Origin: an uncultured Pseudomonadota bacterium
Lineage (GTDB): Bacteria; Pseudomonadota; Alphaproteobacteria; RF32; CAG-239
Direction: 5' to 3'
NCBI GenBank assembly: GCA_949289935.1
Contig: CASEQD010000012.1
Location: 1-35,164 of the forward strand
Length of the DNA: 35,164 nt
Of the stretch, positions 1 to 13,515 are shown one piece after another (the stretch's first letter is position 1; the number at the start of each line of letters is the position of its first letter). Under the pieces are notes generated by a model. The model was given only the letters and a program-made list of their open reading frames with translations, did not search any database and was not told the DNA's origin. The position numbers and the translations under genes are program-made.

Positions 1-732
1 CTTGGTTATACCGAAACTTCCGATTCCGGAAATTGCATAAAATGTTTCTTTGGCAATTATTGGGCTTGCCCCGGAAAAAACACCGAAGAAGAACCGGAAG
101 AACCTGAAGCCGACGTTCTCGGTCAGTGTAACGGTTATGCCAAAAACTGCAAAATCGCCGATATATTGAACAGCGATGGAACTTGTACAAGCGATAAAGT
201 CAGCGGCAAAACGCCGATTGGTGTTGTGGTTTACATCAGCGATGGCACGGATAAATGCGGCTACGCTATGACCGCCAGTCCGATAGCAACAAATATTGGG
301 TGGTCAACAGAAGCTGTTGATACCGGTGTTTTTCAGTCGTCAAATAGTCAGAAAGCAATCAAAGATTTCAACGTCAGCAGCAATATGACTAAAATAATCC
401 AAGTGAGTAACGGCAACAGTAGTACATATCCGGCAGCCTATGCCGCATTGAACTATGCGCCAAGTGCGGCGCCGACCTCTAAGGGTAAGTGGATGTTGCC
501 GACAGCAGGGATTTTGGATAGTCTTTACACCAATCTGAATGCTGTCAATAACACCATATCCAAACTGGGCGGAACACAACTAACAAATGATAATGAGCAC
601 ATCTGGTCATCGTCCGAGGAATCACGCTACGCTGCGTGGGTCTTCTGTACAAATCGTGGCTACGGAGTGTACGGCAGCGGTAAGGGTAACTATAACGACG
701 ACTACGTCGTTCGCCCGGTGCTCGCTTTTTAA
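1..732 (+). CDS. Cys-rich protein with DUF1566/Lcl-like C-terminal domain, 5' end outside window
   Basis: The frame is open from base 1, so the N-terminus lies outside the window; a TTG at 166 is only an internal codon. About 243 residues are visible. A Cys module (C-I-K-C, then NYWACP) is followed by an acidic E/P-rich linker and a domain opening TPIGVVVY. That domain continues with YPAAYAA and KGKWMLP and ends with WSSSEE...AW...YVVRPVLAF. This matches the general pattern of DUF1566 / Fibrobacter-paralogue domains, which have a C-type-lectin-like fold and are usually exported. The Cys content suggests a disulfide-bonded surface or periplasmic protein, but no signal peptide can be seen. It is homologous to the genes at 4908-5692 and 33208-34146, and the first 73 bases are almost identical to 4985-5057. 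Ligand and function are unknown. Confidence 0.8.
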   Translation, partial: LGYTETSDSGNCIKCFFGNYWACPGKNTEEEPEEPEADVLGQCNGYAKNCKIADILNSDGTCTSDKVSGKTPIGVVVYISDGTDKCGYAMTASPIATNIGWSTEAVDTGVFQSSNSQKAIKDFNVSSNMTKIIQVSNGNSSTYPAAYAALNYAPSAAPTSKGKWMLPTAGILDSLYTNLNAVNNTISKLGGTQLTNDNEHIWSSSEESRYAAWVFCTNRGYGVYGSGKGNYNDDYVVRPVLAF

Positions 733-2370: not shown

Positions 2371-3720
2371 CTACATAAAATGCCTGATATGCAGATACAA
2401 GGCCGCAACACCGACGCTTGCCAGCATAACCGGAATTGACCAGATGAGAAAACGCATAAAATGGATGGGGTGTCCTTCCCGCTGCGCCATACCGGCAACG
2501 ATTACGTTGGCTGAAGCGGCAATTAGCGAACCGTTCCCGCCGAAACAGGCGCCGAGTGACAAAGCCCACCACACCGGCATCATAACTTCTCTTCCGCCCA
2601 TGCCTGCCTCCATGGTTTTAATCATTGGAATCATGGTGGCGACAAACGGAATATTGTCAATGGCCGTCGATACAAAAGCCGAAATCCACACAACCAGCAT
2701 GGTTGCTTTTTCAATGCTGCCGTCGGTATAATCAATAAACTTGTTGCCGAGCAGGGTTAAAACGCCGGCTTGTTCCAGTCCGTAGACAATGGCAAACAAC
2801 CCCGCAAAGAAAAAGATTGTCGTCCAGTCCACCAGGTTAAAAGCTTCTTCCACTTTGTGGTCGCGCACGTCGTGCGTTGCGCCGAGAGTATAAACAAACA
2901 AAAGCACCACGGCGCCGAACATGGCAATTGTCCCGTTGGCGATATGCAAATGTTCCGCCGCCATAAATCCGGCAATAACCAGCACCAGCACGGTCAGTGA
3001 TTTCCACAGCAGCGGATAATCGGAGATGGCATCCGCTTCGTTCATTTTCATCACGGATTTGCGATCTTTTTCGGAAGCGGTGAATTTCCGTCCGTAAACA
3101 AAGTCAAAAGCTATAATCAGCAAAACCATCGTAACCGCCACCACCGGCGTCAGTTCGTTGACAAAGTCCATAAAGGAGAGGTTCAAAGCCGAACCGATGA
3201 GAATATTCGGAGGATCTCCGATAAGCGTGGCAGTTCCGCCGATGTTTGAAGCAAAAATTTCCAAAATCAGATAAGGGTAGGGATTAAGTTTCAGTTTGCG
3301 GGTAATTTGAAAAGTGACCGGAGCAATCAACAGCACGGTGGTAACATTGTCCAGCAGGGCGGAAAACATAGCCGTAACCACGGCCAGCACAATCATAATC
3401 CCGCGCGGATTGGCCTGCACTTTTTTTGCCGACCAGATGGCCACATATTGAAACATTCCCGATTTTTCGGCAATCCCGACAATAATCATCATGCCGATAA
3501 GCAGTGCCAGAGTATTAAAGTCAATGCCCTGAATGGCGGTTGTTTGGGTTAAAACGCCGGCAAAAATCATAACCGCCGCCCCGGCAATGGCAACAACGGC
3601 TCGGTTTAGTTTTTCGGTAAAAAGAATAATATAGCTGACAACCAGAATAGCCGTCGACACAATCATCGGATTCCATCCGAAAATTACCTGTGATGAAGAT
3701 ATCAAACTTTCGGCATGCAT
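2371..3720 (-). CDS. ArsB/NhaD-type ion transporter, copy 2
   Basis: A 449-residue membrane protein with the same motifs as copy 1: DNVTTVLL, GDPPNILIG, DNIPFVATMIPM, GACFGGNGSLIAASANVIVAG. The two copies share most residues over their whole length, including the loops after TM1. They differ mainly in the cytoplasmic loop around 205-235 and in transmembrane residues. The start is the ATG at 3720, preceded by GGAG. It follows the TrmJ-like gene by 63 nt and may share its promoter. Both copies look intact, so both are probably functional cation/proton or anion exchangers. Substrate unknown. Confidence 0.88.
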   Translation of the reverse strand: MHAESLISSSQVIFGWNPMIVSTAILVVSYIILFTEKLNRAVVAIAGAAVMIFAGVLTQTTAIQGIDFNTLALLIGMMIIVGIAEKSGMFQYVAIWSAKKVQANPRGIMIVLAVVTAMFSALLDNVTTVLLIAPVTFQITRKLKLNPYPYLILEIFASNIGGTATLIGDPPNILIGSALNLSFMDFVNELTPVVAVTMVLLIIAFDFVYGRKFTASEKDRKSVMKMNEADAISDYPLLWKSLTVLVLVIAGFMAAEHLHIANGTIAMFGAVVLLFVYTLGATHDVRDHKVEEAFNLVDWTTIFFFAGLFAIVYGLEQAGVLTLLGNKFIDYTDGSIEKATMLVVWISAFVSTAIDNIPFVATMIPMIKTMEAGMGGREVMMPVWWALSLGACFGGNGSLIAASANVIVAGMAQREGHPIHFMRFLIWSIPVMLASVGVAALYLHIRHFM

Positions 3721-4649: not shown

Positions 4650-4793
4650 TTTCCCTCAGGGATGGAACTCTCTCTCCTCCTCCCCCTGAGTACTCCCCTC
4701 TCATTCCCTCCCTGAGTAGGGCTTTCCCTTTTCTCCTCCCCTGAGTACTCCCCTCATTCCCTCCCTGAGTAGGGAGGGTTAGGGAGGGTATGA
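4650..4793. repeat. GC-rich short-repeat array A
   Basis: Part of the gene-free stretch 4513-4904. Four good units and one degenerate unit (4650-4662) of a C-rich motif with core CCCTGAGTA alternate in two forms: CTCCCCTGAGTACTCCCCTC and TTCCCTCCCTGAGTAGGG. The pair is tandemly repeated at about 4676-4721 and 4734-4774. The array ends with GGGAGGGTTAGGGAGGGTA. Each unit is nearly self-complementary around TGAGTAGG, so single-strand hairpins are possible. Related arrays occur at 5706-5754 and 34895-35042, always beside Cys-rich/DUF1566 genes. No spacers or cas genes were seen, so this is not CRISPR; it resembles REP-type intergenic repeats. Confidence 0.8.
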
Positions 4794-4846
4794 TTTAAAC
4801 AAAAAAAATCCTCTTCATTTTTTTCACCTTTGCATGAAATTAGTGA

Positions 4847-4907: not shown

Positions 4908-5692
4908 ATGCGTGTGATTCTTTCCGCCGGCAAAAAGGTATATTTTACCCTGCTGGCTTCTTCGATACGCAGGACTGTCAAACCCTCGGATATACCGAAA
5001 CTTCCGATTCCGGAAATTGCATAAAATGTTTCTTTGGCAATTATTGGGCTTGTCCCGAACCGGCCAAACCCGAAGGAGCCGTTCTCGGTCAGTGCACCGG
5101 CTATGCCAAAAACTGTAATATTGCCGATATCCTTTACACAGACGGCACCTGTTCCGCCGATGTCGTCTCCGGTAAAACCCCGATTGCCGTCGTCGTTTAT
5201 ATCGGCGGAGACGGCTGCGGACAGGCCTTGGCTCTGGAAGGACTGAGAACCTATCAATGGTCAACGGAATATGTCGATATCCCGGATTTGTTCAATTACA
5301 GCAGCAAACCAGTCAATGATTTTGACAGCTGTGAGAATACCAAAACAGTTATTGATTACAGTTACAAGCAATATGGCGACAGCGCTTATAAGTATTACCC
5401 AGCTTTTTGGCAGGTATATAACTATGCCCCGTCAACCATGCCGGAAACCAAAGGAAAATGGTGTTTACCGGCCGGCGGCGTATTAAACAGCATCTATCAG
5501 AACAAAGCGGCTATTGACCAAAGCTTAACCAGAATTAACAAGGAAAATATCATCAACGATTGGTGGTCGTCGTCCGAGGAGAATAATTTCCACGCGTGGT
5601 ACTGGTACGCGTCTTCGGGTGTGTTCATCAACAGCAGTACCCGCAGCACTAAGAGAGTTGCCTACTATGTTCGCCCGGTGCTCGCTTTTTAA
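4908..5692 (+). pseudogene. Cys-rich DUF1566-like gene with disrupted start (frameshift or silent cassette)
   Basis: The large frame is open from just after a stop at 4904-4906 to the stop at 5690-5692, but has no ATG, GTG or TTG before the conserved Cys module. It encodes FFDTQDCQTLGYTE, a CIKC...NYWACP module, an E/P/A linker, TPIAVVVYIGG, KGKWCLPAGG, and the ending WWSSSEE...AW...YYVRPVLAF. The ATG at 4908, next to the GGAGG, reads MRVILSAGKK up to an A5 tract (4932-4936). One extra A there would join it to the large frame. It may therefore be a pseudogene, a phase-variable or frameshifted gene, a base-call error, or a donor cassette. No convincing signal peptide is visible. It is a close relative of the gene at 1-732. 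Confidence 0.7.
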
Positions 5693-12341: not shown

Positions 12342-13515
12342 ATTCACCGGTATACACTTGGCTTCCCGGAGGAACGGGGATTCCCATGCCTTCTTCCAGA
12401 ACATTTGCATGCACAAAACCCATGTCGCCGTTATCCAGTGTAATTCTGAACCATGTTTTGTCCGGGCTGATTCCCGTAACCCGGACGGTTGTTCCGCTTT
12501 CCAGCCGGGTTAAAATGTCAAAATGATCGGAAGGCCCGTACATAACCTTGGCCTGTAGTCTGTCTTTCACATGATAAAGCATGTTACGGCTGTTGCTGTC
12601 TGTCCGGATATCTATGATTTTGGCAACAACGACATCGTCAAAGCTTTCCTGTCCGCCGAGATGCAGAACTTCACGATAATAATCAATTTTTTCGGGAACG
12701 CGGGGCAAACGGGAAAGAAAATACCCGGCGCCGATCGATAAAAAAAACGCACATAAAATTCCCCCCAGAACGGTTGGCGCCAGCAGCTGCAGACGTCGCA
12801 GACGGTCATAATTCCATCCGGCAGGAAGTTGTTGCGCGGTGCCGGGAAGCGCTTTAATAAATTTTTCCAGAAAAATTTTGGCTTCATCGTCGGCATATTC
12901 CCAGGCCTGACGGGCAGATAAGGAAGCCTGTGTGCTGAGGTGTTCTTGTTCATAAGCCAAAGCATTGTGAACAAGAAGGCAGAAATTATCCTGCCGGTTG
13001 GTTCCTGTGCCGGCATAATTGTTTTTTAAAACGGAAAAGTTTTTGACCAATGCGCCGGGAGACCACCACCCCAACAGACAGTTTAAAAAAGAATTTTTAA
13101 ATACGATTTTTTCCGCTTCTTTATAATTACAAATATATTGATTTTTTTTCAGGGTATATTTAAATATTTTTCCTCTCAGGGAAAAGAGGCTGAGACACCG
13201 GACAAAAACATTGTTTTGCCCGGAAACATCAGTCAGAATTTTAAGTGAAAAAATATCCGGAAAATTTTCGGCGGGATGCGAACGGGCCGCCAAATCATAA
13301 ACCAAACGGTTGTGTTCGTCGCTTAATATGTCATAAGCGGCAGAAATTTTTTGAAAAATTTCCATGGCTTCGGGCGACGGATTATGATCGGGATGCCACT
13401 TTTTTGCCATTTCCCTGTAATGCAGTTTAATTTCTCTCCCGTCAGCATCCGGAGACAAATTCAAAACGGCATAATACCCCAGAGGATCGGAAGAAAATTT
13501 TTTATCAATACTCAT
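12340..13515 (-). CDS. Membrane J-domain protein with C-terminal SH3 domain
   Basis: A 391-residue protein. It has an N-terminal J domain (about 12-75) with the intact HPD at 41-43, so it should stimulate an Hsp70. A helical middle region without G/F or zinc-finger parts follows (not DnaJ itself). A single transmembrane helix lies at about 244-267. The C-terminal SH3-like domain (about 328-376) includes GTTVRVTGISPDKTWFRI and GDMGFVHANVL. The orientation is probably J domain in the cytoplasm and SH3 in the periplasm, where SH3b domains often contact peptidoglycan. The start overlaps the stop of the preceding flagellar gene by 4 nt (ATGA), so it is translated with the operon. Role unknown; a chaperone for flagellar insertion is plausible. 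Confidence 0.8.
   Translation of the reverse strand: MSIDKKFSSDPLGYYAVLNLSPDADGREIKLHYREMAKKWHPDHNPSPEAMEIFQKISAAYDILSDEHNRLVYDLAARSHPAENFPDIFSLKILTDVSGQNNVFVRCLSLFSLRGKIFKYTLKKNQYICNYKEAEKIVFKNSFLNCLLGWWSPGALVKNFSVLKNNYAGTGTNRQDNFCLLVHNALAYEQEHLSTQASLSARQAWEYADDEAKIFLEKFIKALPGTAQQLPAGWNYDRLRRLQLLAPTVLGGILCAFFLSIGAGYFLSRLPRVPEKIDYYREVLHLGGQESFDDVVVAKIIDIRTDSNSRNMLYHVKDRLQAKVMYGPSDHFDILTRLESGTTVRVTGISPDKTWFRITLDNGDMGFVHANVLEEGMGIPVPPGSQVYTGE

Follow-up and report, generated by a model that had tools for sequence, protein, structure and literature searches.

In the diversity-generating retroelement (DGR) of Bordetella phage BPP-1 (bRT, Avd, TR and the target Mtd), a single template operates in cis, a structured spacer lies 3' of TR, and the avd 3' motif ends reverse transcription (PMC12875486). 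In Treponema denticola, one reverse transcriptase (RT) serves genome-scattered targets, two to seven per isolate, among them relics whose template has been lost or belongs to a different type (PMC4891356). Genome surveys describe DGRs with several templates, such as the Stenotrophomonas SKA14 element with two TRs and six VRs, and DUF1566-type targets (PMC6642488). In Thiohalocapsa PB-PSB1, targets of incomplete loci match the template of another locus at all non-adenine sites, and loci have undergone duplication and decay (PMC10907252). Finally, a large survey made it a requirement that a repeat be no more than 1 kb away from the RT (PMC8144416), so that remote template cassettes would be missed.

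The alphaproteobacterial DGR inferred herein resembles, and departs from, several of these systems. It shares with BPP-1 a DGR-type RT, Avd, an AAC-rich template, A-to-N change and a variable C-terminal tail on a C-type-lectin-fold protein, but its structured element lies 5' of each template (short 3' regions fell outside the structure analysis), its templates occur in arrays and its RT is located elsewhere. As in Treponema denticola, a lone RT appears to serve dispersed targets, and leftover targets remain; unlike that system, the target domain has 79 matches in the genome, 62 tails could be read, and the two templates lie outside the RT locus. It has in common with the surveyed multi-template DGRs both the plurality of templates and the DUF1566-type targets, whereas no description of tandem leader-template units of constant period, up to seven in number, was found for those DGRs. 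Last, it parallels Thiohalocapsa in its cross-locus template matches and in its apparent duplication and decay, although other loci are complete there and no complete cassette exists in this assembly. Because multi-template and trans-acting DGRs have been reported before, neither feature is in itself a novelty; what makes this DGR a new form is that its templates belong to arrays, that a leader lies 5' of each of them and that the RT is encoded apart from them. We found no earlier description of tandem template arrays, or of a DGR of this lineage, in the open-access literature, but most subscription papers lay outside that search, and the absence of such a description is not established.

We consider it highly probable that the variable tails described below are variable repeats (VRs) of a DGR that acts in trans, its targets being a large family of secreted proteins with a C-type lectin fold. 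Under this model, a leader-template RNA would be copied by the RT together with Avd, template adenines would be misread during copying, and the resulting cDNA would replace the tail of a gene sharing the end boxes (WSSSE...RPV(L/I)); the AAY codons of the template could in this way come to encode nearly every residue, yet would not yield a stop. The assembled sequence itself demonstrates the components, two clean template-target pairs, the two template classes of the window tails and, within this assembly, an RT that lies apart from the templates. Retrohoming itself is inferred from these data rather than observed, and current activity is likewise an inference that has not been shown, since no population data are available.

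Reverse transcriptase, Avd and template-target pairs

The window, that is, the whole 35,164-nt stretch of DNA analysed, is an entire contig (C12) of a draft genome of 1.72 Mb in 67 contigs, with completeness rated 100%, whose named relatives are uncultured Alphaproteobacteria such as 'Azospirillum sp. CAG:239' and deer caecum bins. A first-pass annotation had read two gene tails in the window as possible DGR targets and had called for a search of the genome for a DGR-type RT and an A-rich template with the same 24-nt end. The genome does contain such an RT (C30:6594-7958, + strand), the sole RT in it with an RVT_1 match above cut-off. It matches the PHROG 1423 RT profile (2.8e-95), carries the motifs IGNLTSQ and YVDD, and has as its best PDB match 8ub7 (1.4e-30), which we take to be the BPP-1 enzyme. 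By these motifs and profile and PDB matches, although without an RT tree, it meets the test for membership of the DGR clade. The single avd gene (122 aa; C26:29798-30163, - strand) is supported by Pfam bAvd (1.6e-17, above cut-off) and PHROG 3206 (8e-23); a PDB sequence search with its product gave no match. Downstream of avd, at a period of 261 bp, lie two AAC-rich copies of a tail, TR1 (C26:29568-29694, - strand) and TR2 (C26:29295-29430, - strand), which are stop-less, are not followed by a stop and have no lectin domain upstream, thereby meeting the test for adenine-rich non-coding templates. The A-rich template was found in this sense, but neither TR1 nor TR2 fits the tails in the window at all non-A sites.

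The fit is far closer elsewhere. Specifically, the VR of a gene on C39 (L013) differs from TR2 at 20 of 38 adenines and at none of 73 other positions, and that of a gene on C60 (L220) differs from TR1 at 24/38 adenines and 1/64 other positions (P about 1e-11 to 1e-12 for the two pairs). A related genome (G005) has an array in which two templates can each be paired with a target changed at adenines alone (21/38 A and 0/70 non-A; 19/38 A and 0/64 non-A). The adenines changed in the TR1 and TR2 targets are those of AAY codons, none of the four adenines of the AAG codon being changed in the clean pairs, and no A bias was detected in the 200 nt upstream of the VR of window gene 1. As far as substitution patterns can reveal past events, the two pairs show that the DGR mechanism has worked in this genome. 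It is very hard to reconcile them with an account that dispenses with a retroelement altogether, in which paralogues diverged under diversifying selection while gene conversion kept the end boxes identical. The large paralogous family with its mosaic genes, and the indels between tails, would suit such a history, but the restriction of changes to template adenines, seen in two target genes that are not linked, would not, nor would the existence of an RT, Avd and AAC-rich stop-less templates in the genome, nor the conservation of third codon positions inside template classes where positions 1 and 2 vary.

Two minor features of the tails can be recorded here. The AAG codon is retained in 44/55 tails, and its constancy could reflect either selection or a sequence context that the RT reads faithfully. 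Further, L013 carries a near-perfect 16-bp hairpin after its stop codon, behind the VR; among four tails folded, it was the only one with a strong, BPP-1-like hairpin behind the 3' box.

The two window tails and their lectin-fold family

Gene 1 of the window (1-732, + strand) is the C-terminal part of a lectin-fold target gene truncated by the contig start, its frame open to the stop at 730-732. Its Lcl_C match (E 6e-4) falls under the curated cut-off, and its paralogues with the same domain begin with a signal peptide. Comparison with TR1 and TR2 delimits VR 1 (604-730, + strand), the part matching the C26 templates, which belongs to a template class marked by AWVFCT. Gene 2 (4908-5692, + strand) has a signal-peptide start at 4908 but is frameshifted: alignment with an intact paralogue (L056) reveals a 37-bp deletion near 4963, in the signal-peptide region, which shifts the lectin domain, read in the frame that ends at 5692, away from the frame of the ATG at 4908, and no in-frame start was found for this domain. 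VR 2 (5564-5690, + strand), delimited from the columns of 17 aligned class members, belongs to a second class, AWxWxASSGxF. Stretches of roughly 37, 29, 47 and 71 bp, their lengths not divisible by three, are missing from gene 2 and from three further lectin genes of this genome (L002, L017 and L021), all in one short zone around the signal-peptide end (window 4908-5000); these genes may be silenced copies, or the zone a recombination hot spot.

Recounting bore out the basic measurements on which the first-pass annotation rested: both tails span 30 codons, of which 23 (tail 1) and 22 (tail 2) end in C or T, close to the three quarters estimated, and the endings at 709-732 and 5669-5692 (both + strand) are identical over exactly 24 nt (GTTCGCCCGGTGCTCGCTTTTTAA). 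The 17-nt core of this box has 14 exact matches in the 1.72-Mb genome and 24 with two or fewer mismatches, compared with 0 for a reversed control pattern, so its recurrence is not due to chance. The box is common to both window genes, most other targets and the templates (in these as far as GCTTTTT), and it is the site at which homing initiation would be expected.

A C-type-lectin-like domain had also been proposed for these genes, and the predicted structure upholds it. The lectin domain of gene 2 was modelled from 51 sequences with a pLDDT of 95 (an earlier prediction from 11 sequences, at pLDDT 39, was unusable). The model matches 4eps (Z 15.4, rmsd 2.8, 158 aligned), the Legionella Lcl domain 8q4e (Z 12.2, rmsd 2.2, 109 aligned) and many further C-type lectins, meeting the test for a C-type lectin fold as far as a predicted structure allows. 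The same domain has 52 matches in one genome of the genus (G006) and 6-54 in the other nine, including 9-23 in each of three that lack an RT (G004, G007 and G010). A WSSSE-type box occurs in 55 of the 62 distinct tails, and intact members appear to start with a signal peptide, judged by appearance and without a predictor. Encoding dozens of lectin-fold proteins for secretion, a part of which several templates could rewrite, this small gut genome would constitute a large natural repertoire of variable binders, the ligands of which are unknown.

The tails differ from each other at 17, 18 and 20 sites at codon positions 1, 2 and 3, respectively. The 20 differing third positions, as counted in the first-pass annotation, had there raised doubt about a single template, and this doubt was justified: the tails belong to different template classes, so that one template for both is ruled out and the differences at third positions are explained. 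Tail 1 differs from TR1 at 19/36 A and 4/57 non-A positions with six codon gaps, and from TR2 at 20/37 A and 10/65 non-A positions with three. The scoring of these gapped comparisons tolerated A changes, and the A bias is therefore somewhat inflated. Slippage has been invoked to explain reported gains and losses of three bases within the AAC runs of DGRs (PMC12875486). Given the codon gaps and real non-A changes, tail 1 was written from a relative of TR1 and TR2 or has drifted since.

The class of tail 2 comprises about 30 tails. Among the 17 aligned members, the hypervariable columns fall on positions 1 and 2 of codons of the AAC/AAT type, and GCG TGG, TGG, GCG and TTC show little or no change; one pair (L003 and L015) has 13, 10 and 1 differences at codon positions 1, 2 and 3. 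Across the class, differences are distributed 38/37/25% over the codon positions, compared with 24/14/62% just upstream. No class-2 template was found in this genome (120-nt BLAST and leader model) or in 152 family genomes (23-nt pattern with three mismatches and leader model). The AAY codon pattern would nevertheless imply a template, one that is absent from the assembly; tail 2 may be the work of a template that has been lost or was not assembled.

As the exact templates of both window tails are missing from the assembly, their DGR origin rests on pattern and family. We judge it an even chance that they are fossils, once written by the DGR but now subject, their templates gone, only to ordinary mutation and gene conversion, such that only the TR1 and TR2 targets are still writable. 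Neither tail has a matching template, gene 2 is frameshifted, tail 1 departs from both templates by codon gaps and at non-A positions, and three genomes of the genus retain their 9-23 lectin genes without an RT, all of which agrees with fossil status. Against this, MAG assemblies break at repeats, so the templates may simply be unassembled, and tail 1 has both end boxes in common with the living templates, which could therefore still overwrite it. Whichever holds, reading the tails as DGR targets is supported through the RT, Avd, the A-rich templates and the two clean pairs.

Two further features of the window were noted. A short motif (CCCTGAGTACTCCCCTC / CTACTCAGGGG) builds, by eye, intergenic stretches at window 4660-4800 and in L027 at 12600-12800, close to lectin genes and adjoining a template cassette. 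Tandem related genes of 449 codons each (900-2249 and 2371-3720, - strand) resemble ion-transporter membrane proteins.

Tandem template arrays and their 5' leader

In relatives, tandem leader-template units sit between avd and the RT at a period of 245-298 bp, with seven units in G006, four in G018, three each in G005 and G016, and two in G001. Each template is preceded, on its 5' side, by a conserved structured leader with three covariation-supported helices, in which 14 of 21 pairs have changed on both sides and 96.6% of helix cells are paired, compared with 27-46% in slid controls. No Rfam match was found for it in the four loci searched. A covariance model of the leader has matches in 24/152 family genomes, and the two copies in this genome both lie before the templates. 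An RNA function of the leader is inferred. By analogy with the role of the avd 3' motif in BPP-1, it may mark the cDNA end of each unit and thereby keep neighbouring templates within an array distinct, though this is a guess. Being conserved and separable, the leader could also help to locate RT-less templates and offers a straightforward way to test what the complex of RT and Avd recognises.

Templates may not be immune to the process they feed. In G095, two of three leader-bound units resemble A-mutated copies of the third (11/26 A compared with 5/64 non-A, P 3e-4; 15/26 compared with 5/64, P 1e-6), and a unit in G016 has a weaker A bias (13/29 compared with 8/58, P 2e-3). This pattern suggests that templates can themselves be overwritten by the mutagenic process, albeit on the strength of one small array and the weaker support from G016. 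Adenine-poor leader-bound units, with templates that look like mutated copies of a neighbouring template, were seen in G095:C132 and C43 (L290 and L291), G016:C22 (L097) and the second unit of G006:C129 (L090).

Separation of the RT from its templates

Most relatives have avd, templates and RT at one locus, with a template within 1 kb of the RT; this assembly, with the RT on C30 and avd, TR1 and TR2 on C26, fails that requirement, and no template or leader was found on C30. C30 keeps the downstream synteny of the family DGR locus but lacks avd and templates, save for a remnant in which the promoter region of avd and some 15 of its first codons run on into the RT frame. This remnant is identical to the C26 copy at 140/171 aligned positions, with indels, and the two are thus long diverged. 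On C26, TR2 is followed by a hairpin and then a convergent tolB-like gene, and the contig ends about 1.6 kb upstream of avd.

One potential explanation is that the split is an artefact of assembly and that a single cassette exists, as in most relatives. A draft in 67 contigs, one of which stops so close to avd, leaves this conceivable, but we regard it as highly improbable, given the retained synteny and diverged remnant on C30, the hairpin and convergent gene after TR2 on C26, and the recurrence of RT-less template units in G018 and G095 with the RT on another contig. The comparison of the two contigs points instead to a putative duplication followed by complementary loss, rather than to misassembly. 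RT-less units are present in G018:C72, G114:C3 and G095:C132/C43, each in a genome with its RT on another contig, and leader copies persist without an RT match in G062 and G077. Conversely, avd and RT stand side by side in G002:C43 (L093) and G003:C50 (L094), where no template was found between them and no leader in either genome.

We tentatively propose, with somewhat less than even confidence, that the DGR of this clade is a modular library: leader-template units, in arrays of up to seven, detach from the RT, duplicate, get lost or are even overwritten by the mutagenic process, and the repertoire of writable lectin tails is renewed not only by adenine mutagenesis but also as templates are gained and lost.

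As a separate observation, the RT-less leader-template units of G018:C72 (L285) and G114:C3 (L286) are near-identical despite belonging to two different genera, and the G018:C72 unit is adjoined by a stop-terminated template copy that is unmutated over the stretch read.
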